From Phytoactinopolyspora limicola (GTDB lineage Bacteria; Actinomycetota; Actinomycetes; Jiangellales; Jiangellaceae): a stretch of 64,000 nt of DNA. How positions within the stretch are numbered: the stretch's first letter is position 1; every line of letters begins with the position of its first letter. This document shows positions 12,560 through 59,276 of this stretch, piece after piece. The stretch is from NCBI RefSeq assembly GCF_011320225.1, contig NZ_JAAOEN010000010.1:124001-188000 (forward strand), written 5' to 3'. Under the pieces are notes generated by a model that was not told the DNA's origin, ran no database searches, and was given only the letters and a program-made list of their open reading frames with translations. Both the position numbers and the translations under genes were made by a program.

Positions 12560-13555
12560 ATGGCAGCCGCGAAGGCGCGGGTCGGGTACGCGGCGATGCT
12601 CGAACGGTTCGCTCCGGCGGAGGCCGTCCAGCTCGCCGTCGACGCCGAAGACGCCGGTTTCGACGGCATCATGGCCGACGACCACTTCCAGCCATGGACC
12701 CCGCACCAGGGGCAGGCCGGTTTCGTATGGAACGTCATGACGGCGATGGCCGAGCGGACCCGCGGCGGCGTCGGAGTTGGTGCCACCTGCCCCTCGTTCC
12801 GGTGGCACCCGGCCGTCGTGGCGCAGGCCGCGGCCACCTTGGAGTCGATGTATCCGGGCCGGCACTGGCTCGGCATCGGATCCGGCGAAGCCATCAGCGA
12901 ACACGTCGTCGGGGGATACTGGCCCGAGGCGCCGCAGCGTATCGCGCGGATGTTCGAGGCCATCGAGATCATCCAGAAGTTGTTCAGCGGCCGCGACGTG
13001 CGGCACGACGGCCGGTTCTTCACCCTCGAACGAACCCGGTTGTGGACCCGGCCAGCAACCCCACCGCCGATCTACGTGGCGACGTCGGGCCCGGTCACGG
13101 CGCGCCGGGCGGGTGCCGCATGCGACGGGATCATCACCGTCGCCACGTCGCGGGAGAAGGTGGCGGCGCTGTTCGGCCGCTTCGACGAAGGCGCTCGTTC
13201 GGCCGGCAAGGACCCCGATACGCTGGCGAAGGTGGTACAGGTTCACCTGTCATGGGCACCGGATGAGGATGAGGCCGCGGCGCAGGCGGTACGCGAGTGG
13301 CCCAACGGCGCCATGCGTTTCTCCAAGGCCGACGTCCGGTCGCCACACGACATCGAGCAGATGGCTCGGCTGGTACGCCCAGAACACTTTCAGGGACAGC
13401 TGCTCATCTCGGCGGATCCGGACGAGCACCGCCGCGAGATCCAGCGTTACCTCGATGCCGGCGCCACTCACGTCTATCTGCACAACGTCGGAACCGATCA
13501 GCGGGCGTGGCTCAAGGTGTTCGGCCGCGAGGTCCTACCCCGCCTCTCCCCATGA
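12560..13555 (+). CDS. F420-dependent LLM-class oxidoreductase (TIGR03557/FGD-like)
   Basis: 331 residues, a luciferase-like TIM barrel that uses coenzyme F420. Family signatures are VGYAAMLERFAPAEAVQLA, FDGIMADDHFQPWTPHQGQA, GVGATCPSFRWHPAVVAQA, WLGIGSGEAISEHVVG, and the C-terminal DAGATHVYLHNVG. These match the group containing F420-dependent glucose-6-phosphate dehydrogenase and its unassigned relatives. The exact substrate is not certain. GAGGAGG lies 7 bases before the ATG. The stop codon (13553-13555) is inside the left arm of a palindrome. The F420-0 type transporter 3 kb downstream fits an F420-using organism. Confidence 0.87.
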   Translation: MAAAKARVGYAAMLERFAPAEAVQLAVDAEDAGFDGIMADDHFQPWTPHQGQAGFVWNVMTAMAERTRGGVGVGATCPSFRWHPAVVAQAAATLESMYPGRHWLGIGSGEAISEHVVGGYWPEAPQRIARMFEAIEIIQKLFSGRDVRHDGRFFTLERTRLWTRPATPPPIYVATSGPVTARRAGAACDGIITVATSREKVAALFGRFDEGARSAGKDPDTLAKVVQVHLSWAPDEDEAAAQAVREWPNGAMRFSKADVRSPHDIEQMARLVRPEHFQGQLLISADPDEHRREIQRYLDAGATHVYLHNVGTDQRAWLKVFGREVLPRLSP

Positions 13556-13609
13556 TCATGAACACTTTGCCGTGTTATCACCGGGGTAAGTGTTCATGAT
13601 CATGGGGAG
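13546..13609. repeat. intergenic palindrome, family A copy 1
   Basis: The 22-bp left arm 13546-13567 (CTCCCCATGATCATGAACAC...) and right arm 13588-13609 are exact complements around a 20-base loop. The left side of the loop continues as TGCCGTG exactly as in the copy at 51631, but the right side has lost the complement, so this copy is partly decayed. It contains the stop of the upstream oxidoreductase gene and the likely start codon of the downstream lipoprotein gene. Confidence 0.92.
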
Positions 13610-14759
13610 GGTGGGGGCCGTCGGGATCGGGGCGGTCCTGGTGCTGGCGGGATGCGGCGGCGACGCTCCACCGCCGACGCCGACGGGATCCCCACCGACG
13701 CGGACCCCGCCTTCGGACACCGTACCGACGGAATCCGTACCGACGGAATCCGCACCGACGGAGTCCGTACCGACGGACACCGCACCGCCGGAGGAGCAAC
13801 CGGACCCGGCCGGGGTGGTCACCTTGGCCTTCGCCGGGGACATCCACTTCGAGGATCAACTACGTGCCCGCCTCGACGATCCCGACACCGCCCTGGGGCC
13901 GCTGGCCGACAAGCTGTCGGCGGCCGATCTCGCGGTGGTCAACCTGGAATCGGCGGTAGGAACTACCGGTACTCCGGAGCCCAAACGTTTCACCTTCCAG
14001 GCGCCGCCGGTGGCCTTCGACGCGTTGGCCGCCGCCGGGGTGGACGTCGTCACCATGGCCAACAATCACGCCATGGACTTCGGTCCGGACGGGTTCGCCG
14101 AGACGTTGGCGGCCGCGTCGGCGCGGCGTGACCAGCTCTCCGTCGTTGGCATCGGGGTGGACCAGGACGAGGCTTTCGCACCTGCGCTGCATGACGTCGA
14201 CGGCACCCGGGTGGCCGTTCTGGGTGCGTCGACCCCCGACGACCCCACCGCCGATCCCACCGACCATTGGGCCGCAACCGCCGACGACCCCGGCATCGCG
14301 GTTGCTCTAGACCCGGCTCCGCTGCTCGACGCGGTGACCACCGCTCGCGACGACGCCGACGTGGTGGTCGTCTACATGCACTGGGGTGTCCAAGGTGAGA
14401 GTTGCCCGAGCCAGTCCCAGCAACAGCTGGCCGGTGAGCTAGCGGCCGCCGGTGCCGACGTCGTCGTTGGTAGCCACGCACACCGGCTCCAGGGCGCTGG
14501 GCTGGTCGACGACGGGTACGTGGCCTACGGGCTCGGTAACGCCGTGTGGTACCGGCAGGGCTCGGCGGAAGCCTCCGCCACGGGGGTACTCACCGTGACC
14601 GTGAACGACGGCGAGGTGGTCGACGAACAGTGGGCTCCGGCGACGATCGGTGCCGACGGCGTACCGGAATTCGCCGACGGGGATGACGCGCAGCAGATGA
14701 TCGACGACTTCCATCACCTGCGGGACTGCGCCGACGTGGAACCATTGCCTGATCGGTGA
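13602..14759 (+). CDS. CapA-like metallophosphoesterase lipoprotein
   Basis: About 385 residues. A short hydrophobic leader ending in the lipobox LAGC predicts a lipoprotein on the outer face of the membrane. A Pro/Thr/Ser linker with PTES[VA]-type repeats (VPTESVPTESAPTESVP) follows. The catalytic domain carries LAFAGDIHFEDQL, VNLESAVG, TMANNHAMDFG, YMHWGVQGE and VVGSHAHRLQ, the CapA/PGA_cap metal-site set seen in poly-gamma-glutamate capsule proteins. No other cap genes are nearby, so a capsule role is doubtful. Start choice is uncertain: GTG 13590, ATG 13596, ATG 13602 and GTG 13611 are all in frame, and all lie in or next to the palindrome arm. Confidence 0.83.
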   Translation: MGRVGAVGIGAVLVLAGCGGDAPPPTPTGSPPTRTPPSDTVPTESVPTESAPTESVPTDTAPPEEQPDPAGVVTLAFAGDIHFEDQLRARLDDPDTALGPLADKLSAADLAVVNLESAVGTTGTPEPKRFTFQAPPVAFDALAAAGVDVVTMANNHAMDFGPDGFAETLAAASARRDQLSVVGIGVDQDEAFAPALHDVDGTRVAVLGASTPDDPTADPTDHWAATADDPGIAVALDPAPLLDAVTTARDDADVVVVYMHWGVQGESCPSQSQQQLAGELAAAGADVVVGSHAHRLQGAGLVDDGYVAYGLGNAVWYRQGSAEASATGVLTVTVNDGEVVDEQWAPATIGADGVPEFADGDDAQQMIDDFHHLRDCADVEPLPDR

Positions 14760-19317: not shown

Positions 19318-19385
19318 CCCTCCCGGTGATCATTGGCTTTTGACTACCGGATCCGGTAGTCAAAAGCCAATGATCACCGGGAGGG
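19318..19385. repeat. perfect palindrome, family B copy 1 (68 bp)
   Basis: The two 34-bp arms meet with no loop at CCGGATCCGG. The core is TGATCATTGGCTTTTGACTA and its complement. The outer 9 bases, CCCTCCCGG, are specific to this copy yet still perfectly paired. It lies between divergent genes, 23 bases before the aminotransferase start. The rest of 19142-19407 shows no other feature I can support. Confidence 0.95.
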
Positions 19386-19407
19386 GGGTGGGTGAGGGGC
19401 GGATACA

Positions 19408-25101: not shown

Positions 25102-25175
25102 CCCCCGTCCCGATGATCATTGGCTTTTGACTACCGGATCCGGTAGTCAAAAGCCAATGATCATCGGGACGGGGG
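25102..25175. repeat. perfect palindrome, family B copy 2 (74 bp)
   Basis: 37-bp arms with no loop, centred on CCGGATCCGG. The inner 23 bases per arm match copy 1 at 19318. The outer bases CCCCCGTCCCGA are unique to this copy and still perfectly paired with the opposite arm. It begins 9 bases after the guaB3 stop and ends 13 bases before the hydratase start. Confidence 0.95.
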
Positions 25176-27004: not shown

Positions 27005-27133
27005 CACGGGGCGGGTCCGCGAGCCTGGCGTTAACCTCCGATGTGGAGCGGTGTGTCGGGGTTAGCTGATCTTGTCTGGGGCGTCACATTGCTGCGGCGT
27101 AGTCAACGGCACTGTGGAGCGCGCGGCCCCCAC

Positions 27134-27298
27134 CCCCTGTTGTGCACCTGATCTCCGTTTTGGCGCCTGATCGTTTCTACCGGGGTGATCAGATGCACCA
27201 ACTCGCCATCAACCAGCATCAACACGTCGTCACCCGCATCTGATCACCCCGGTAGAAACGATCAGGCGCCAAAACGGAGATCAGGTGCACAACAGGGG
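27134..27298. repeat. inverted repeat with 63-bp arms, family D copy 2
   Basis: Left arm 27134-27196 and right arm 27236-27298 are perfect complements around a 39-base loop. The outer part (GTTGTGCACCTGATCTCCG) matches the element at 1657, and the inner end GATCAGATGC is also shared. The middle of the arm differs, yet is perfectly paired here too. It occupies the gap between convergent HMG-CoA lyase and GtrA-like genes. The rest of 27005-27306 shows nothing else. Confidence 0.95.
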
Positions 27299-27306
27299 AG
27301 GGGAGG

Positions 27307-29719: not shown

Positions 29720-29850
29720 TCCCGGTGATCGTTGCCGTTTTCGTGTCGTTGCTCACCGGTGATCGAAGTCAAGATCTGGTCGTAATAGCGACACGAAAAC
29801 AGCGACGATCACGGGTGTTGAGGGCAGAAATTCGGCGACGATCACCGGGG
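29720..29850. repeat. composite palindromic element, family C
   Basis: A left segment (CCCGGTGATCGTTGCCG..., 29721-29750) pairs imperfectly with 29786-29815 (TAGCGACACGAAAACAGCGA...). A third segment, GTTGAGGGCAGAAATTCGGC... (29817-29848), is again complementary to the first 17 bases of the left arm. The last segment recurs with two mismatches over 31 bases inside the MFS gene at 35749-35779. This composite, half-decayed structure occupies the gap after purE. Confidence 0.8.
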
Positions 29851-29982
29851 TGAGGGGTGAGGGGTGAGGGGTGAGGGGTGAGGGGTGAGGGGTGAGGGGT
29901 GAGGGGGGAGGGGTGAGGGGTGAGGGGTGAGGGGTGAGGGGTGAGGGGTGAAGGGTGAAGGGGTGAAGGGTGAAGGGTGAGG
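29851..29982 (+). repeat. 7-bp tandem repeat tract TGAGGGG, about 18 copies
   Basis: Near-perfect repetition of TGAGGGG, with a few TGAAGGG variants at the right end. It begins where the family C element ends and stops 33 bases before the iron box of the importer operon. Seven-base units are slippage-prone, and the G4 runs could fold into a quadruplex. Open frames through it (SPLTPHP repeats on the minus strand) are repeat artefacts. Together with the iron box it fills the 462-bp gap 29682-30143. Confidence 0.95.
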
Positions 29983-35711: not shown

Positions 35712-36944
35712 CTATGACGTTCCGCGCCGGGGCGGGGTGGAGCCGGAGGTTGAGGGCAGAAAACCGGCGACGATCACCGATCCGGCCACGATCGCGGCCA
35801 TCGCGGCCAGCAGTACCGGAGCACCGTGCACCGCCGCGAACCCGGCAGCAGCCGCACCGGCCGCGCTGGCAGTCAGCTTGAGGCTGGCGCCAACCATGAA
35901 CACCTGAGTACGCGCGACGGGCGGGCTGGTCGCCGTACGTACGTGCAGGGTCACCGTCAGCAGCGGGCCGTCGGCGAACCCGGCTAGTGCGAAGCACACC
36001 GCGGCCACGGCGATGGATGGGGTGAGAGCCGCCAGGCCGAGCGACCCAGCGATGACGGCAAGGCTGGTGAGGATCACCGGCATGGCCGGCAGGGTGCGGG
36101 CCCGCCGGTGGGTCATCGCCAGCGACCCCAGCGTTGCGCCAGCGGCAACAGCGGAGAGGAACAGCCCGCCGGTGCTTTCCGCGGCACCGAGGTGGACGGC
36201 CAGCAGAGGCGCGGTCACCGCCAGCCCACCGAGCCCCGCGTGCGCGAGGGTGGTGACCACGGTGGTGGCCCGGAGTATGGGAATCCGCCAGATGGTGGTG
36301 AATCCGGCCAGGAGCCCCGGTGCGACTTCGCTACCGCCAGATGGTGTTCGTGGCCTCAGATGGTGTGTTCGGCCATCTGGCGGTAGCGAAGTCGCACACA
36401 ACGCGGCCAGCGCCGCCACCGCCGCGAGGGTGTACGCCGCCGCTGCCGGTGATGCGAGGGCGGCCAGCAGAGCGCCGAGGCCGGGCCCGGCGATACCGGC
36501 GACGTTGTAGGTCGCCGCGTCCACGGCGTGGGCGCCCGGCCGTTGATCCGGCGATACGAGACCGCCGATGAAACTGGACAACCCACCCAGCAGAAGGGGA
36601 CCAGCGCTACCACCGGCCAGTGCTATCAGCACCGTGAATGGCCACGATAGATGGCCGACGGAGCTGGCTAGGCCGGCCAGTGCGGCCGCGACGACGAAGG
36701 CGGCGGCCACGGTGACCGCCACCGGGCGGCCGGTGCGGTCGCGCAGGTGTCCGCCGAGTGGGCCGGTGACCACGTGCGGCACCGTCATGGCCGCGACCAG
36801 CAGGCCACCGAGCCAGGCCTGACCGGTCCGGTCGAGGGCCAGCAGGACGATGACGATGGGGGCACCTTCCTCGGCGGTGCGGCCGAGCAGTGCGGTACCG
36901 ATGTACGACGGAGGTAGACCAACGGAAGGGTGTAACGGCTTCAT
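35712..36944 (-). CDS. MFS transporter carrying a palindromic coding insert
   Basis: 410 residues with about 12 helices. Motif-A-like GPLGGHLRDRTGRPVA follows helix 2. Residues 183-208, in the central cytoplasmic loop between the two six-helix halves, are encoded by a 76-bp perfect inverted repeat and read SLPPDGRTHHLRPRTPSGGS. The C-terminal VIVAGFLPST is encoded by a sequence also found in the intergenic family C element. It looks like a drug exporter of the MdfA/YfkL-like type; the substrate is unknown. It is divergent from the CGNR regulator gene with only 30 bases between starts, so the two are probably co-regulated. Confidence 0.85.
   Translation of the reverse strand: MKPLHPSVGLPPSYIGTALLGRTAEEGAPIVIVLLALDRTGQAWLGGLLVAAMTVPHVVTGPLGGHLRDRTGRPVAVTVAAAFVVAAALAGLASSVGHLSWPFTVLIALAGGSAGPLLLGGLSSFIGGLVSPDQRPGAHAVDAATYNVAGIAGPGLGALLAALASPAAAAYTLAAVAALAALCATSLPPDGRTHHLRPRTPSGGSEVAPGLLAGFTTIWRIPILRATTVVTTLAHAGLGGLAVTAPLLAVHLGAAESTGGLFLSAVAAGATLGSLAMTHRRARTLPAMPVILTSLAVIAGSLGLAALTPSIAVAAVCFALAGFADGPLLTVTLHVRTATSPPVARTQVFMVGASLKLTASAAGAAAAGFAAVHGAPVLLAAMAAIVAGSVIVAGFLPSTSGSTPPRRGTS
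35749..35779. repeat. family C fragment inside the MFS gene
   Basis: 31 bases (GTTGAGGGCAGAAAACCGGC...) match 29817-29847 at 29 positions. Here the sequence is part of the coding region for the C-terminal tail of the MFS protein. It is a single arm with no complementary partner nearby. Confidence 0.8.
36321..36396. repeat. 76-bp inverted repeat inside the MFS coding region
   Basis: Arms TGCGACTTCGCTACCGCCAG... (36321-36344) and 36373-36396 are perfect 24-bp complements around a 28-base loop. It stays in frame and encodes a hydrophilic loop between the N- and C-terminal halves of the transporter. Confidence 0.93.
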
Positions 36945-36974
36945 TATCGAGCACGTTACAGTACTCTGGGCGGC

Positions 36975-37535
36975 GTGGACACCTTCCGGCCCGTCGCCCG
37001 GCTCGTCGCCCTGCTTAATGCCGTGCCAGCTGCCGCGGAACCAGATGCTGTGGCCATTGGGCAGCTAGTTACCGTCCTCCGCGACCACGGCGAGGATCTT
37101 GAGTCTCTAGCCAGCGCCGATGCGCTCGAACTGATCCAGGCGCTGGATCGGCTGCGCGACGTGCTCGCTATCGACGACGTCGACGGAGCCGCGGTGGCGA
37201 TCAACGAGATCTTCGATGAGGTCGCGGCCCGGCCCCGGCTGTCCAGGCACGGCGGCACCGCCTGGCACATCCACGTCGATCCGGACGACGCCGACTCCGG
37301 CTGGGGCACCTGGTTACTCGCCAGCAGCGCACTCGCGCTGGCCGGCATCATCCAGGAACACGCCCGCCGGACCTGGGGGCGGTGCGAGGCCGCGGGGTGC
37401 CAGCGGTATTTCGTCGGCGACGGCCGGGGAGGTGCGCGTCGGTACTGCTCGACGACGTGCTCGAGTCGGGCCCGGGTCGCCCAGCACCGTAGTCGCCTGC
37501 GCACCTCCGACGTGTCAGGCCGGACAAGTCGCTGA
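36975..37535 (+). CDS. CGNR zinc-finger regulator with ABATE domain
   Basis: 186 residues. The N-terminal ABATE-like stress-sensor part precedes a C-terminal CGNR-type zinc finger: WGRCEAAGCQRYFVGDGRGGARRYCSTTCSSRARVAQHR, quoted here in two parts as RCEAAGCQRYFV and RRYCSTTCSSRARVAQHR, with four Cys. These are DNA-binding regulators of unknown signal. The last seven residues, VSGRTSR, come from the arm of a palindromic repeat. The start GTG 36975 is 30 bases from the divergent MFS start, so it probably controls that exporter. Confidence 0.85.
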   Translation: MDTFRPVARLVALLNAVPAAAEPDAVAIGQLVTVLRDHGEDLESLASADALELIQALDRLRDVLAIDDVDGAAVAINEIFDEVAARPRLSRHGGTAWHIHVDPDDADSGWGTWLLASSALALAGIIQEHARRTWGRCEAAGCQRYFVGDGRGGARRYCSTTCSSRARVAQHRSRLRTSDVSGRTSR

Positions 37536-37639
37536 GCTGCGGTGCTGGGTCTGTCAGGCCTGACACGAGTGGGGGCCTGCCGAAGTTGTCAGGGTTTACG
37601 ACTCACCAGCTGCTGCCCACCGACTTGTCCGGCCTGACA
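37513..37639. repeat. inverted repeat, family E, joining two gene ends
   Basis: TGTCAGGCCGGACAAGTCG (37513-37531) and its exact complement (37621-37639), with a central palindrome TGTCAGGCCTGACA at 37552-37565. The left arm encodes the last residues of the CGNR protein; the right arm encodes VRPDKS near the HutI C-terminus. The same 12-15 base core appears at 40219, 40258 and 40599. Confidence 0.92.
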
Positions 37640-38805
37640 GGTCGCAAGGTGGAGGCGGTCGGTACGCCGGGACGGTAGGCCAGATGCCGATACGACGGTG
37701 CATCCAGCACACACAGGTCTGGCCGGGCGCCAACCCGCAGGTGCCCTACGTCGTCCCGGCGCAACGCCCGTGCACCACCGGCCGTAGCCGACCACAACGC
37801 CTCGGCCGGCGTCATCCCCATCTCCCGCACCGCCAGCGCGATACAGAACGGCATCGACGATGTAAAACAACTCCCCGGATTGCAGTCGGTAGCCAAAGCG
37901 ACGGTTATCCCGGCGGCCCGCAACCGCCGGGCGTCTGGGTACGGCGAACGTGTCGAGAACTCCACCCCCGGCAGCAGCGTCGCAACCGGGCCACCTGACG
38001 ACGCGGCGTCGGCCAGCAGATCGACGTCGTCGCCGGTCAGATACGTGCAGTGATCCACGCTGGCCGCGCCCAGCTCCACCCCCAACGCCACCCCCGGTCC
38101 GGCCCCGAGTTGCCCGGCATGCACGCGCAACCCCAGCCCCGCACGGGCCGCGGCCTCCAGCACGGTCCGAGACTCATCCTCGTCGAACGCGGTAGGCGCC
38201 CCGGGCTCGCAGAACACGTCGGCCCACCGGGCATGGGGCGCGCACGCCTCCAACATCGGACCGGTGACTAGGTCGACGTAGCCGGCCCGGTCCTCCCGGT
38301 ACTCGGGCGGCACCACGTGGGCCCCCAGGAAGGTGGTTTCCGGCGTCAACGTGGCGGCGATCCGTAGTGCCCGGGCCTCGTCGTCGACGGTCAGCCCGTA
38401 TCCGCTTTTGATCTCGACGGTGGTGGTGCCCTGCCGGCGCATCTCCGCTACCAGGGCTGCTGCGCGCGTGGTGAGTTCGTCGTCGGTCGCGGACCGGGTC
38501 GCGGCCATCGTGGTCGCGATTCCGCCGCCGTCGTAGTTTTCACCGTTCATGCGGGCCTCGAACTCGCGGGCTCGGTCGCCGGCGAAGACGACGTGGCTGT
38601 GCGAGTCGACGAAACCAGGCACCACCGCCCGCCCGTCGACGTCCACTCGGTGATCCGCCTCAGGGGCCGCCGACGCCGGCCCGGTCCACAACACGGCATC
38701 CCCGTCCACCACCACAGCGGCCCGTTCGACGATGCCCAGTCCCGGGCCGTGTGCCGGGTCGATGGTCACCAGCTCGCCGATGCCGGTGATGAGTGTGCTG
38801 CTCAC
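37603..38805 (-). CDS. hutI: imidazolonepropionase
   Basis: 400 residues, amidohydrolase superfamily, hydrolysing 4-imidazolone-5-propanoate to N-formimino-L-glutamate. Metal site [12 protein letters not shown], then [50 protein letters not shown] and [18 protein letters not shown]. The start GTG 38805 is supported by GGAGG five bases upstream; the open frame extends further but without homology. The C-terminus [13 protein letters not shown] is an extension contributed by the family E repeat. It is the last gene of the hut run. Confidence 0.93.
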
Positions 38806-38917
38806 AACGTCCTCCATGGGTTCGTCGGCTCCTGGACGGTCCTGGGGCAGGGGCGGACGGTCTTGGGGCAGGCCCCGGCGCTGCTGGCGTAGACCGCCGT
38901 CACGACCCAATGGGCGC

Positions 38918-40327
38918 TCATGGCCGGCCCGTCCAGAGCTCGTCGATGCTGGTGTCGAGGAGTGCGGCGACGTCGCCGAGCCGGTGCCGGCCACTCTCGA
39001 CGACGACGTTTCCGCCTATCACCACGGTGTCGACGTCGGCGGCACCGGCGCTCAGCACTATCTGGTCTGGTGCGGAGCCCGCGGTGCGTACTGAATCTGG
39101 GCGCACCGCCACCAGGTCGGCCGCGGCCCCTGGTGCCAGCCGCCCGTGCCCTGGCCAGCCGAGCGCGTCATGTCCAGCCTGAGTGAGGGCGGCGACCAAC
39201 TGGTCGGGCCGGAACCGTCCGCGCTGACCGCTGGCCAGGCGCTCATGCATCTCGAGAAGCCGCGCCTCGGCCAGCAGGTCGACGACGGCATGCTGGTCGC
39301 TGCCCAGGCACACCGGGCTGCCGGCCGCGTGCAGCGCACCCATGGGCGACAACCCGTCCGCCAGGTCCTGCTCCGTTGTTGGACAGGCACACGCGGTGGT
39401 GCCGGATCGGCCGAGCAGGGTGATGTCGGTGTTGGTGAGGTGGGTGGCGTGCACGGCCGTGGTGGCTGGGCCGAGCGCGCCGGTATCGGCCAGCAGTTGT
39501 GTGGGAGTCCGCCCGTACTCGGCTAGGCAGGCGTCGTTCTCCGCCGGCTGTTCGGACAGGTGGACGTGCAGCGGTAGCGACGACGACGCTGCCCAGCTCG
39601 CGACGGCGTTGACAGCGTCCGGTGGGACGGCCCGGACTGAATGGACCGCGGCGCCGCCGACGACGTCTGGCCGGTCGAGCGCCGTGCGCAGCTGATCCAC
39701 CCGGGTGATCCACCGCTCGGCGGTACCGTCGCCGAAGCGTTGTTGTGCACCCTGGAGTGGCCGACCGATCCCGCCGTTCAGGTAGCAGGTGTCCAGGAGC
39801 GTGAGCCGCACGCCGGCGTCGGCGGCCGCCGCGACCAGGGCGTGGCCCATGGCGTTGGGGTCGGCATAGGCCACCCCGCCGGGGGCATGGTGGAGGTAAT
39901 GGAACTCTCCGACGACACTCACCCCGCTCAGCGCCATCTCCGCATAGGCGGCCCTGGCCAGCTGGTAGTAGGTGTCCGGGGTGAGCCGGTCGGCGAGCAG
40001 GTACATGTCGTCGCGCCAGGTCCAGAACGATCCACCGTCGCGATGGGTCCGTCCCCGCAGTGCACGGTGGAAGGCGTGTGAATGTGTATTGGCGAATCCG
40101 GGGAAGACGACGCCGGGAAGCCGGACGTCGCCGGGTGCTGGGTCGACACCCGTGTGTACGGCCGTGATCCGGGTGTCGGCAACGTCGATCCGCACCCGCG
40201 ACGCTAGGGTCGGGCCGGTTGTCAGGCCGGACACACGCTCCACCGCTGATGGCGGGGTTGTCCGGCCTGCTAGGTCGGCAGGCGTGATCCAGGCGTGCTC
40301 GGCCCAGAACGCGCGCGGGCCACTCAT
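38918..40327 (-). CDS. hutF: formimidoylglutamate deiminase
   Basis: 469 residues, amidohydrolase superfamily, converting N-formimino-glutamate to N-formylglutamate and ammonia. [18 protein letters not shown] is the metal motif; [39 protein letters not shown] and [17 protein letters not shown] follow. The start ATG 40327 overlaps the stop of the upstream M20 gene (ATGA). Residues about 19-37 ([19 protein letters not shown]) are encoded by a small family E inverted repeat, an insertion before the first beta strand. A 112-bp gap to hutI holds a direct repeat of GGTC(C/T)TGGGGCAGG. Confidence 0.92.
40219..40269. repeat. family E repeat inside hutF
   Basis: TTGTCAGGCCGGACA (40219-40233) and TTGTCCGGCCTG (40258-40269) are inverted relative to each other, 11 bases perfectly paired (CAGGCCGGACA). 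It is in frame inside hutF and encodes residues around 19-37. Confidence 0.8.
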
Positions 40328-41595
40328 CGCGTCAGCTCCGCCAGGCAATCGGCGAGCGCGTGGACGCCGGCCAGGCAGTCGTCGCGGGCGGCGTGTTCTT
40401 CCGGAGAGTGGGAGATGCCGGTGGGATTGCGGACGAACAGCATCGCGGTGGGGATGCCGGCCTCGCTGAGTACCCCGGCGTCGTGTCCGGCGCCAGTTCC
40501 GAGGATGGGAACGGCCGGCCCGGACGCGCCGGGGCCGGAAACCGCGGTCGACGCCCCAGTCGTCAGCCTGGTCCGAGGTGTCGCCGCTGGTGAATGAGTT
40601 GTCCGGCCTGACACGCCGGAAAGGCGGGTGGCAAGGTCAGCGTCGAACACGGTGGCGCCGGTCCACGATTCTTCGGTGGGTCCGACGTCGGCGAGGTCGG
40701 CGAGCACGGCCCGTACCGCGTCCTCATCGGCGGCTCGGCAGTCCAGCCACGCCGTGACCCGAGACGGGATGGCGTTGACGCCGTTCGGCTCTACCTGGAC
40801 CTTGCCGACCGTCGCCAGCGCGCCGCGCCGTTCCGCCGCGGCCCGGACCTCACCGATCAACCGGGCCAGGGCCAGCATCGGGTCGTCGCGGTCGGCCAGC
40901 GGCGTGGTGCCGGCGTGGTTCGCCTGCCCGTCCAGGGTGATCCGCCACCGGCCGTGCGGCCAGATCATGCTGGCCACCCCCACCGGCGCGGCCAGATCGA
41001 CCAGACCGCGGCCCTGCTCGACGTGGAGTTCGACGAACGTCGCCACCCTCCGCAGTGTCTCGTCGTCGCGGCCCACCTGCTCCGGGTTGTGGCCACCGGC
41101 CCGCATCGCCTCCGCCATCGTGGCGCCGTCGTGATCGGCCAAACCGAGTGCGCGATCGGCGGGAAGCCGCCCGGTCAGAATCCTCGACCCGGCACAGGCG
41201 ACCCCGAAGCGGGCACCTTCTTCGTCGGCGAACGACGCCACCGCTATCGGGCGTGCGGGGTGCCATCCCCGCGCCCGCAGTACGTCGACGGCCAGCAGTG
41301 CGGACACCACTCCCAGGGGGCCGTCGTAGGCGCCGCCGCTGGGCACCGAGTCGAGATGGCTGCCGGTCACGACCCCCGGGCCGTCGGTGTCCGGATCACC
41401 CCACCACGCCCATTGGTTGCCGGCCCGGTCGGTGGTTACGTCCAGGCCGCGGCGAGCCGCCTCCGCGGTGAACCACTCCCGCAGGGTGGCGTCCTCACGG
41501 GTCCACGCGAACCGCCGGTATCCGCCGTCCCGTCCGCGGCCCACCGGAGCCAGCTCGGCCCACATCCGGTCGAATTCGCTGGCGGTTGGTGTCAT
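40324..41595 (-). CDS. M20 amidohydrolase (allantoate amidohydrolase-like), probable HutG substitute
   Basis: 423 residues. The M20 carbamoylase/allantoate amidohydrolase family motifs are [61 protein letters not shown] and [11 protein letters not shown]. In the hut operon its likely task is removing formate from N-formylglutamate, the job of HutG elsewhere; this is inferred from position between hutU and hutF. Streptomyces hut loci, as I recall, have the same gene. About 30 residues (from VSGRTTHSP to GPGASG) interrupt the region before GTGAGHDAG and start with a family E core. ATGA overlaps join it to hutU and hutF. Confidence 0.87.
40599..40613. repeat. family E core inside the M20 gene
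   Basis: TTGTCCGGCCTGACA, the same 15-mer as in the 37621 arm. It encodes VSGRTT on the minus strand at the start of a species-specific insertion. A diverged partner (GTCAGCCTGGTCCG, 40562-40575) may be the other arm. Confidence 0.7.
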
Positions 41596-43271
41596 ACCTC
41601 GCTCGCGGGTAGACGGAGGGCATGGTCGCGGGCGACGTTGGCGGCATCCGGGTAGCCGGCGTCGACGTGGCGGAGCACACCGGTGGCGGGATCGTTGGTG
41701 AGCACCCGTTCCAGCTTGGCCGCGGCCAGGTCGGTGCCGTCGGCCACACTGACCTGTCCGGCGTGGATCGACCGGCCCATACCGACCCCACCGCCGTGGT
41801 GAATGGACACCCACGACGCTCCGGAGGCGGTGTTGATCAGCGCGTTCAGCAGCGGCCAATCGGCGATGGCGTCCGACCCGTCGGCCATGGCTTCGGTTTC
41901 GCGGTAGGGCGAAGCCACCGACCCCGCGTCGAGATGGTCCCGGCCGATCACGATCGGTGCCGCCACCGCCCCGGAGGCGACCAACTCGTTGAACCTGAGC
42001 CCGGCCCGGTGCCGCTCGCCGTGGCCGAGCCAGCAGATCCGGGCGGGTAGCCCCTGGAATGGCACCTTCTCCTGGGCGGCCCGGATCCAGCGGTGCAGGT
42101 GGTCGTCGTCGAACAGGTCGAGGACGGCGTTGTCGGTGGCGGCGATGTCCCGCGGGTCGCCGGACAGGGCAGCCCACCGGAACGGCCCTTTACCCTCGCA
42201 GAACAGCGGGCGGATGTAGGCGGGGACGAAACCGGGGAAGTCGAAGGCACGCTCGAATCCGCCGGAGCGGGCTTCGTCGCGGATCGAGTTGCCGTAGTCG
42301 AAGACCTCCGCGCCGGCGTCCATGAACCCGACCATCGCCGCGACGTGTTTCGCCATGGAGGCACGTGCGCGGTCGGTGAACTCGGCTGGTTTCTTGGCGG
42401 CGTAGTCGGGCCAGTCGTCGACCGACACGTCCTCGGGTAGGTAACTGAGGGGGTCGTGGGCCGAGGTCTGATCGGTGACGATGTCGACCTCGACCCCGCG
42501 GCGCAGTAGTTCCGGCAGGATCGTCGCGCAGTTGCCGACCAGGCCGACCGACAACGCCCGGCGGTCCTGCTTGGCGGTGAGCACCAACCCGAGCGCTTCG
42601 TCGAGATCGTCGGTGTGAGTGTCCAGATAACCCTGCTGATCACGTCGGGCCAGCCGGGACGCGTCGACGTCGATCACCAGGCACACGCCGTCGTTCAGCG
42701 TGACCGCTAGTGGTTGAGCGCCGCCCATGCCGCCGCAGCCTCCGGTGACGGTCAACGTGCCGGCCAGGGTGCCACCGAACCGCTTGGCCGCCACTGCGGC
42801 GAACGTTTCGTAGGTGCCTTGCAGGATGCCCTGGGTGCCGATGTAGATCCACGATCCGGCGGTCATCTGCCCGTACATCGTCAACCCGAGCCGCTCTAGG
42901 CGGCGGAACTCCGGCCAGGTGGCCCAGTCGCCCACCAGGTTCGAGTTGGCGATCAGGACTCGCGGCGCCCACTCGTGGGTGCGGAGGACCCCCACGGGTT
43001 TGCCGGACTGGACCAGCAGCGTCTCGTCGTCGTCCATAGTGCGCAGCGTGTGGACGAGTGCGTGGTAGCTGGGCCAGTCGCGGGCCGCTTTGCCGGTACC
43101 GCCGTAGACCACCAGCTGCTCCGGTAGCTCGGCGACCTCGGGGTCCAGGTTGTTCATCAGCATCCGCAGCGGTGCCTCGGTCTGCCAGCTGCGGGCGGTC
43201 AGGGTGGTGCCCCGGGGTGCCCGGATGGGAGCGGCTGGAACGGCAGGTGTGGGATTGGGTGCGTTGGTCAT
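41592..43271 (-). CDS. hutU: urocanate hydratase
   Basis: 559 residues, hydrating urocanate to imidazolonepropionate with tightly bound NAD+. Conserved runs include [106 protein letters not shown] and [17 protein letters not shown]. The start ATG 43271 follows AAGGAG six bases upstream, in the 11-base gap after hutH. Length is standard. Confidence 0.96.
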
Positions 43272-51631: not shown

Positions 51632-51704
51632 CCCCTTCCCCATGATCATGAACACTTTGCCGTGCTATCGCACGGCAAAGTGTTCATGATCATGGGGAAG
51701 GGGC
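51631..51704. repeat. palindrome, family A copy 2 (34-bp arms)
   Basis: GCCCCTTCCCCATGATCATG... (51631-51664) and its perfect complement (51671-51704) flank a 6-base loop. It shares ATGATCATGAACACTTTGCC with the copy at 13546 but has an extra paired outer block. The first base is the last base of the sigma-factor TAG stop. It is likely a strong terminator-like structure. Confidence 0.95.
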
Positions 51705-57375: not shown

Positions 57376-57403
57376 AAACTGGTCGAGTGATCGTCGCCAC
57401 CCT

Positions 57404-57463
57404 CCCCGTGATCATTGGCTTTTGACCACCGGATCCGGTGGTCAAAAGCCAATGATCACGGGG
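57404..57463. repeat. perfect palindrome, family B copy 3 (60 bp)
   Basis: 30-bp arms, no loop, centred on CCGGATCCGG. Relative to the copies at 19318 and 25102 one base pair has changed in both arms together (GACTACC to GACCACC, with GGTAGTC to GGTGGTC), a compensated substitution. It contains the TGA stop of the glycosidase gene on the minus strand. A family C-like fragment (GTGATCGTCGCC) lies 6 bases to its left. Confidence 0.95.
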
Positions 57464-59276
57464 GGTTGGGGGAGGTGGAGCGGAGGAGGTCGAGATCGTT
57501 GGTGACGGCGACCGCGAGGTCGATGTACAGCGCTGCCGACCACGCGAAACTCGTCGTGGCTCGGCTGGCCCGACCCCCGGTGAGCGGATTCCAGTACTCG
57601 TACATACCCCCCGATCCGGCTACCAGGGCCAGCGTCCGCTCGGCGAGATCGGCAGCGGCATCGGGGCGTCCGCTCCTCAGCAACCCCTCCGCGACCAGCC
57701 GGTTCACGTTGACCCATACCGGTCCGCGCCACATCCGGTCCGCGTCGAACGTGGCGTCGCCGTACGCAACCGTCGGCAGGGGGTGTTCGCCCCAGAGGTC
57801 GCGGTACATACTCGCCACCAACACGTCGACGACGGCCTCCGGCAACCGGCCAGTGAGCAGCGGCATCAGATGAAACGGGGTGAACATCGGCAGCCGGCGG
57901 CCACCGCCGTGTGCGGTGAATCGTCCGGAACCCGCGTCCCACCGCCGGTCCAGCAGGCGAGTGACCCGTTCGGCGGCCGCACCCCGGTGTCGGTCGGCCT
58001 CGGCCCTAACGTTCGGCACCGCAGCGGCCGTACCTTCCGTCAGATCGGCCAGCAAGTCATCCTGCAGGGCGAGATAGGAGTTGAGATCCGGCGGTTCGGC
58101 CGGGACACCGTAGTCGAACAGCGGGCTGTCGTCGAGGCCCGACGAATACGGATGGAGATACTCGGACAGGCCGTCGCCATCGGTGTCGCTCACCGTGGCC
58201 CACCATCGCTGGGAAGCCTCGACCCGAGGCAGCGCCCAGGCCAGCCGATCGGGATCCGGAGCGAGCCGATGCAGGTGGGCCAGCGCCCAAGCGGTCAGCG
58301 GCGGCTTGGTCACCGGGACCGAGCCGGACGCCACCCCGGCGGCGTCGCCCAGATGATCCCGCAGCCGCGCGGCGTCGGCTGGTGGGAGGTCATCGGCGCT
58401 GGCCAGAATGCCGTCATCGGAGACGACGTCGGGAATCAGGCCATCACTCAGCTGGTGATCGAGGAAGAGCGCCACTTGATCCCACGCCTGTTCGGGAGCG
58501 CCGTGGCGGAGGCCGGCGGCGACGAAGTACGAGTCCCATTGCCACGCGCCGACGTAGCCGAACTTCGACGGGACCACCATCAGCCGCGACGGGTCGTGTG
58601 CCACCCGGACCTGGTTGGCGCGGAGCACCCACCAGGCCAGCCGGGCCGTCATGACAAGGTCCGAGCGCACCACGGGCATCCGGCCAAACCACTCGGCCCA
58701 GCGGTCGACCGCACGGGCTAGCAACTCGGCGTGGCCGGCCGGCACCGCTGCCGGTACGGGCTCACCCTGCACCTGGAGGACGACGCGGCTGCCGAGACCG
58801 TCGGCCGGGCCGTCGACGTCGAGGGTGACGACGGGGGCCTCGATCGAACCACCAACCACCTGCTCGACCACACCGCCGTCGACGTGCCAGGTGAGCCATT
58901 CTCCGCCGGTGCCGGTGAGGTCGGTGCGGGCCAGGCCGCCGTCGGCGGTGAGATCAACCGCACCGGCGACGTGAAACTCGACCCGCCAACGGCCCGGTGG
59001 CAGCCCCAGGCTCAGCGTGGTCGCGTCGGCGAACACCAACGACGGGCCGTCGGTCAGGTAGATCGCCGCCGGATCGGCCCGATGCACCGGGCAGGAGCGG
59101 CCGGTAACCGTCCGCACCCGCAGGCCCGGCAGCAGCCGGCACTCGGCGCTGCGGCGCTCGTACTCCGCGCTGGTGATGGTCAGCATGCCGCCCGACTGGG
59201 TGACCAGCAGCCGCGAACCCGCGTCGGTGAAGGGCGACTCGACGAGGTCGAGGGTGGGCATCGGGGTATCTGCCAT
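57456..59276 (-). CDS. GH63/MGH1-like glycoside hydrolase
   Basis: 606 residues. An N-terminal beta-rich domain (about 1-190) is followed by an (alpha/alpha)6 barrel with KFGYVGAWQWDSYFVAAGLRHG (catalytic Asp in WQWDS), QLSDGLIPDVV, PVTKPPLTAWAL, YDYGVPAEPPDLNSY-like FDYGVPAEPPDLNSYLALQ, MWRGPVWVNVNRLVAEGL and the late acid in MYEYWNPLTG. These are hallmarks of the trehalase/GH63/mannosylglycerate hydrolase-like clan. It has no signal peptide. It follows the permease gene by three bases (TGA CCC ATG order reversed on the minus strand), so it ends or continues the sugar operon. Confidence 0.86.
   Translation of the reverse strand: MADTPMPTLDLVESPFTDAGSRLLVTQSGGMLTITSAEYERRSAECRLLPGLRVRTVTGRSCPVHRADPAAIYLTDGPSLVFADATTLSLGLPPGRWRVEFHVAGAVDLTADGGLARTDLTGTGGEWLTWHVDGGVVEQVVGGSIEAPVVTLDVDGPADGLGSRVVLQVQGEPVPAAVPAGHAELLARAVDRWAEWFGRMPVVRSDLVMTARLAWWVLRANQVRVAHDPSRLMVVPSKFGYVGAWQWDSYFVAAGLRHGAPEQAWDQVALFLDHQLSDGLIPDVVSDDGILASADDLPPADAARLRDHLGDAAGVASGSVPVTKPPLTAWALAHLHRLAPDPDRLAWALPRVEASQRWWATVSDTDGDGLSEYLHPYSSGLDDSPLFDYGVPAEPPDLNSYLALQDDLLADLTEGTAAAVPNVRAEADRHRGAAAERVTRLLDRRWDAGSGRFTAHGGGRRLPMFTPFHLMPLLTGRLPEAVVDVLVASMYRDLWGEHPLPTVAYGDATFDADRMWRGPVWVNVNRLVAEGLLRSGRPDAAADLAERTLALVAGSGGMYEYWNPLTGGRASRATTSFAWSAALYIDLAVAVTNDLDLLRSTSPNPP

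Follow-up and report, generated by a model that had tools for sequence, protein, structure and literature searches.

A dispersed family of paired inverted palindromic sites in Phytoactinopolyspora limicola, with one full and two half-copies in the hut region

Elements in and beside the hut genes

Here we describe a family of repeated elements in Phytoactinopolyspora limicola (RefSeq assembly GCF_011320225.1), three of which lie in a 64,000-nucleotide stretch of contig NZ_JAAOEN010000010.1 (positions 124,001 to 188,000 of the forward strand), hereafter the window. One full and two half-elements occupy 3.1 kb of its hut region, in or beside four genes of histidine use, the names of which are those of the first-pass annotation; the hutI start was picked by orthologue alignment. 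The features are as follows:

36975..37535, + strand: CGNR zinc-finger protein gene, its last residues coming from the element
37513..37639, no strand: full 127-bp element made of two 53-bp modules in inverted orientation, 21 bp apart
37513..37526, + strand: left outer site of the full element, TGTCAGGCCGGACA
37552..37565, no strand: inner site of the full element, a complete palindrome, TGTCAGGCCTGACA
37587..37593, + strand: inner half-site of the right module of the full element, TGTCAGG
37603..38808, - strand: hutI (imidazolonepropionase), its C-terminal tail coming from the element
37626..37639, - strand: right outer site of the full element
38918..40327, - strand: hutF (formimidoylglutamate deiminase)
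40220..40272, - strand: single 53-bp module within hutF (residues 19-36)
40324..41595, - strand: M20 family hydrolase gene
40560..40613, - strand: single module (53-bp half-element) within the M20 hydrolase gene (residues 328-346)

The exact core, TGTCAGGCCGGACA, occurs in the window at 37513 (+), 37626 (-), 40220 (+) and 40600 (-), and a variant with two mismatches to it, TAGCAGGCCGGACA, lies at 40259 (-). The first-pass annotation had placed the cores at 37513, 37621, 40219, 40258 and 40599, of which the first is exact and the others are each 1-5 bases off, and it had overlooked the perfect palindrome at 37552 as a further site. At up to three mismatches, the window contains 29 matches to the core, against a mean of 11.5 and a maximum of 27 in 100 shuffles.

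The repeat had also been assigned to four genes. The added peptides are indeed present in all four proteins, but copies of the element lie inside only hutF and the M20 gene. The full element sits between the convergent 3' ends of the CGNR gene and hutI and contains both stop codons, and counting four was an overcount because this one 127-bp element supplies the tails of both CGNR (VSGRTSR) and hutI. In the hutF module, the outer site is degraded (the TAGCAGGCCGGACA variant) and the inner site is a full exact core at 40220-40233; in the M20 module, the outer site is intact at 40600-40613 and the inner half-site is degraded, GCTGACG in place of the usual CCTGACA.

No module was detected in ten hut loci fetched from relatives (best E 1.0). 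In four relatives, HutI stops a little beyond the point at which the tail of the window protein starts, and the CGNR protein ends earlier in one congener (G004) and carries unrelated tails of its own in two other relatives (G021 and G001). Measured between anchors, the convergent CGNR-hutI gap is 163 nt here, 103 nt in G021 and 73 nt in G001. Compared with G004, the M20 linker has 27 additional residues, and its copy overlaps and adjoins a loop modelled with low confidence (residues 335-357, pLDDT below 50). In hutF, the stretch linking W to VRI numbers 35 residues here as well as in G002 and G003, and 25 in G004; since the linkers of G002 and G003 reach the same length without a core, an 18-residue insertion in hutF is not proven. 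As judged from sequence, the two internal copies, in linkers of variable length, are consistent with insertion, and the extra peptides of the hut proteins look like by-products of the repeat.

The HutI, M20, CGNR and HutF proteins of relatives (L069-L072) carry in-frame loop insertions of about 10-30 residues that differ species by species. Inspection by eye and folding revealed no palindrome shared among these insertions, and the idea of genus-wide in-frame palindromes was rejected. In the congeners G003 (L208:1751-1838) and G004 (L068:11298-11385), 3' gene junctions bear another large palindrome, formed by AAATGATCATGTNNNGTGGGTTTTC and its inverse with starts 63 nt apart; the G004 junction is that of CGNR and hutI, which in the window is occupied by the full element.

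Anatomy and genome-wide occurrence

The module consists of a 14-bp palindrome, TGTCMGG-CCKGACA, and a half-site, CCKGACA, 32 bp further inward, and the full element consists of two inverted modules, each reading TGTCMGGCCKGACA, 32 bp, half-site. Among 41 ends, the half-site at offset 46 is exact in 26, has one mismatch in 8 and two in 1, and it is exact at offset 47 in 2 further ends. Full elements account for 12 of 29; their inverted modules are separated by 19-31 bp, and the far site stands at an offset of 111-113, in one case 123. MITE-type terminal inverted repeats are present, made up at both ends of the 14-bp site and a weaker consensus at module positions 15-29, with a weak TTT tract and C-rich sequence outside the sites.

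We compared the genome of P. limicola (G000, a 6.59-Mb draft of 40 contigs, 99.45% complete) with 21 relatives, including four congeners of 5.5-7.6 Mb and spanning six genera in all; searches at family and order level covered one and the same set of 22 genomes. Exact cores number 37 in G000, or 35 distinct ones given that 4 lie on two contigs identical over 8 kb, against 0, 0, 0 and 1 in the four congeners and 0 for the reversed control in G000; the sole G004 core is isolated and has no module. A 65-position sequence model returned 43 matches in G000 at E <= 1.2e-5, or 41 without the duplicated contig, and these 41 modules group into 29 elements dispersed across the genome. With 150 candidates scored per genome, the four congeners gave only noise among the part of the weak matches listed (best E 0.0037, within the tail of similar scores). 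The module pattern had 22 matches in G000 and none in the 21 relatives, and a relaxed version had 22 per strand in G000 and 0-1 in the other genomes. Two outer sites 90-115 nt apart were found at 11 places in G000 (10 without the duplicated contig), at none in the 21 relatives and at none in the control. The exact module was absent from the GTDB r220 contigs, a collection from which the own or very near genomes were possibly left out.

Removed before counting were L110, on a redundant contig and equal to L100 over 7983 bases, the one-mismatch cores without module (L101, L102, L106 and L112), the relaxed-pattern matches L114-L116 and the reverse readings of two symmetrical modules; since loci were picked via cores with at most one mismatch, copies decayed at both ends would escape. 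The contigs that bear L100 and L110 (C18 and C36) are identical over at least 7983 bases and represent either a redundant contig or a recent assembly duplication. A phage origin (no match), a plasmid origin (a single 28-bp match, E 0.1) and an origin in viral contigs (no exact match) were rejected. Window positions 36500-42000 had no match in Rfam, and we found no published description of the family in the open-access literature.

One module, at C6:108357-108410, lies within the N-terminus of an aminotransferase-like gene, which we take to be argD. By eye, the segment with the module has a counterpart in all four congeners and no added segment, and in G003 the identical peptide, AELSGLTG, is encoded with three differing bases in the 18-nt core. 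The argD copy thus fails as an insertion, since the peptide recurs at this place in a congener whose DNA has diverged; judging by these alignments, the site would either have arisen in place or predate the genus. The first-pass annotation had named the same peptide at the same place over diverged nucleotides as a sign against its reading, and this is what is seen at argD and not at the window copies. The case warns that a shared peptide need not mean an insertion, given that a relative can have the peptide without the element.

Site conservation, folding and placement

Pairwise identity among the 12 full elements has a maximum of 0.74 and a median of 0.67, with no highly conserved doublets of the kind that copying would leave, and identity between different elements at positions 15-46 is 0.43. 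With 39 ends as anchors, TGTCMGGCCKGACA was sought 100-130 nt inward and found with no mismatch in 21 cases and with one in 2; in the remaining 16, which include the inner site of a full element and hence no true outer end (L100:3953), the best far match had 5-8 mismatches and was taken as absent, so that nothing fell at 2-4. Controls gave 4-8 mismatches on the outer side and 3-8 in 156 control windows. This gap is not a product of the search, because the far end was tested freely after the loci had been selected. Furthermore, position 5/10 differs between the outer sites of five full elements (L083, L088, L100, L104 and L109), where the variants break the outer stem yet preserve the symmetric half-site, TGTCMGG-CCKGACA. 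That the half-site is kept despite the broken stem favours a reading as double-stranded DNA, and these variants, along with the intact-or-absent far sites, weaken the earlier dismissal of a binding-site role.

The two arms of a full element form a single long hairpin. In folding tests, the native combination of halves outperformed chimeras with halves of other elements when the cores (p 0.013) or the outer 28 nt (p 0.007) were removed, with p 0.069 for whole elements. In a simpler, ungapped comparison of arm identity, p was 0.02 at positions 29-46, but 0.27 over positions 15-46 and 0.93 over 15-28. Template switching between the arms could produce such arm-specific pairing without selection.

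Placement was called with a home-made gene caller, and two such callers disagree at a few loci, e.g. L081 and L105. The 32 placed loci, six of which are core-only sites, comprise 12 in convergent gaps, 17 in tandem gaps, 1 in a divergent gap and 2 inside ORFs. The gap test leaves out L089 and L103, which lie inside ORFs (a doubtful one in the case of L103), and adds the window element; it revealed an excess in convergent gaps (13/31 vs 36/227 in the background, p 0.0023) and avoidance of divergent ones (1/31 vs 47/227, p 0.014). For a transcription-factor operator, these convergent and divergent counts speak against, and the 17 tandem gaps leave room. A stop codon lies within 60 nt of 18 of the 21 elements tallied by hand, out of 26 module loci; the tally excludes L078, L081, L088, L089 and L105, and the nearest called 3' end to L078 is about 350 nt away. 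According to excerpts of Di Nocera et al. (PMC3733652), REPs display the same gap preference, with some copies inside genes.

Signs of movement were sought in several ways. With the boundary set at TGTC, exact target-site repeats flanked 0 of 24 elements for k = 2 and k = 4-9; the 3/24 at k = 3 probably reflect the palindrome's own symmetry. A Y1_Tnp/RAYT transposase (PF01797) was absent from all 22 genomes, including the own draft, and control genomes were positive in 5 of 14 cases. Once the short elements and the three window copies are set aside, the closest pair of exact cores spans about 8.6 kb (C34:439778-448361), and the called genes between them were inspected by eye for an autonomous partner, in a draft of 40 contigs. 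At the RluD and ACAD junctions (without L215 and L216), gene order differs among the genomes compared and no clean empty site was found.

Origin and role of the elements

RU-1 repeats are the same as ERIC repeats. In the excerpts of PMC2759123, these are likewise 127 bp long, intergenic, MITE-like and occasionally read as protein; they are enterobacterial, whereas here only the sites are conserved, and the likeness is one of description. REPINs, according to portions of PMC3116915 and PMC3733652, share more of the anatomy: inverted conserved ends (16-mers there, 14-mers here), a less conserved spacer of fixed length, a hairpin with inter-arm compensation, single as well as paired copies with some inside genes, and a preference for convergent and unidirectional gaps. 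They differ from the present family, for which no Y1_Tnp/RAYT and no GTAG tag were found, whose sites vary as double-stranded palindromes and whose roughly 29 copies include none that is recent. The CGTC REPs, as the same portions of PMC3733652 describe them, have no dedicated transposase, and their tag changes from CGTC to TGTC in many repeats, which is a likeness; there, however, an unpaired tag accompanies an 8-9 bp stem and a 4-5 nt loop, whereas here TGTC has GACA as its partner within a 14-bp palindrome that has no loop. Rickettsia palindromic elements, about 150 bp long and present in many genes in the excerpts of PMC10969869, likewise add related in-frame peptides to unrelated proteins, whereas most copies here are intergenic and those in genes are in hutF, the M20 gene and argD. 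As regards an RPE-type insertion, the M20 linker is longer (by 27 residues, against G004), the hutF linker is equal in length in G002 and G003, and the argD copy is not an insertion.

That these sites arose by chance, or by convergence of coding sequences in DNA of high GC content, is scarcely credible. A near-core may be encoded within a conserved peptide, as at argD, and G004 has a lone core without module, but 37 exact copies against 0-1 per congener, and 22 module-pattern matches against none in 21 relatives, refute it; the earlier view of a single nucleotide element rather than convergent peptides is borne out. That element had been proposed to have spread locally; such a spread around the hut genes, through gene conversion or transposition of recent date, we consider very unlikely. 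Three of 29 elements do fall within 3.1 kb (P = 0.0021 under uniform placement), but the family is genome-wide, contradicting local spread, and the four hut modules share 34-59% identity over positions 15-46, which is roughly what different elements have in common, and therefore are not recent copies of one another. Mobility as such was a reasonable proposal, the module being absent from the ten hut loci of relatives; its recency is not, with no pair of full elements above 74% identity, no target duplication and no Y1 transposase. Also quite unlikely is a function at the RNA level, in which transcribed hairpins would end or protect mRNA 3' ends. It would accord with the nearby stop codons, with the long hairpins and their arm-specific pairing and with a mean interior z of -2.06, but the differences at position 5/10 break the outer stem uncompensated, the aligned flanks have no T-run after the hairpin (the T tract precedes it), single modules fold variably and the window stretch has no Rfam match.

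Harder to set aside, though still doubtful, is the possibility that the sites serve the host: a lineage-specific DNA-binding protein would require paired TGTCMGGCCKGACA sites at a distance of about 112 bp in order to organise the chromosome, end transcripts or regulate genes; the letters would be kept by selection, and the sites could have spread by means other than transposition. Far sites that are intact or absent while interiors have diverged, variants that preserve the half-site and not the hairpin pair, the rigid spacing of 111-113 nt (one 123) and an argD copy that may have formed in place all argue for such a role, which explains the lack of site decay better than a REPIN/MITE-like origin does. 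Against it stand the absence of such sites from all four congeners, their placement at 3' ends and not in divergent gaps, and the weaker shared consensus at positions 15-29, which points to a shared ancestry of the element in its entirety. A more specific version, that paired sites of fixed geometry for a putative lineage-specific binder are selected at 3' ends and arise from coding near-matches as at argD, seems unlikely to us; if true, it would mean that a REPIN-like anatomy is maintained without a RAYT transposase.

On balance we lean, with caution, towards the view that the family represents old, dispersed binding sites for a protein, arranged in pairs and belonging to a REPIN/MITE-like element, both the binding and the mobility being read from the pattern. 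The conserved letters and fixed steps, with diverged DNA between them, resemble a protein-binding array; the letters and steps are direct observations, as are the family itself, its anatomy and its location. The anatomy and the 3'-end location match those of REPINs and MITEs, which makes past mobilisation within the lineage the likeliest origin. A lineage-specific element of this kind, its sites bound by protein, would have spread in the past and would now persist mostly at 3' gene ends, and in the hut region it would have left one full copy between the convergent genes and one half-copy each in the linkers of hutF and M20.

As far as portions of PMC3116915, PMC3733652 and PMC10969869 indicate, REP and RPE families are mainly proteobacterial. 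A family present in one of five Phytoactinopolyspora genomes, with no RAYT found, raises the question of how such repeats spread, and sites that are intact or absent around diverged interiors raise that of why they escape decay.

The window also contains other repeats. Palindromes of a separate family, TGATCATTGGCTTTTGAC..., whose arms match perfectly over 30-37 nt, lie at 19318-19388, 25105-25175 and 57400-57470, and another palindrome, TGATCATGAACACTTTGCC..., has two copies, at 13547-13611 and 51637-51701. Long inverted repeats around CACCTGATCTCCGTTTTGTC pair 1620-1783 with 2115-2278 and 27129-27196 with 27236-27303; GATCAG-rich repeats likewise follow rluD in G001. Additionally, an array of GGGGTGA heptamers occupies positions 29847-29972.
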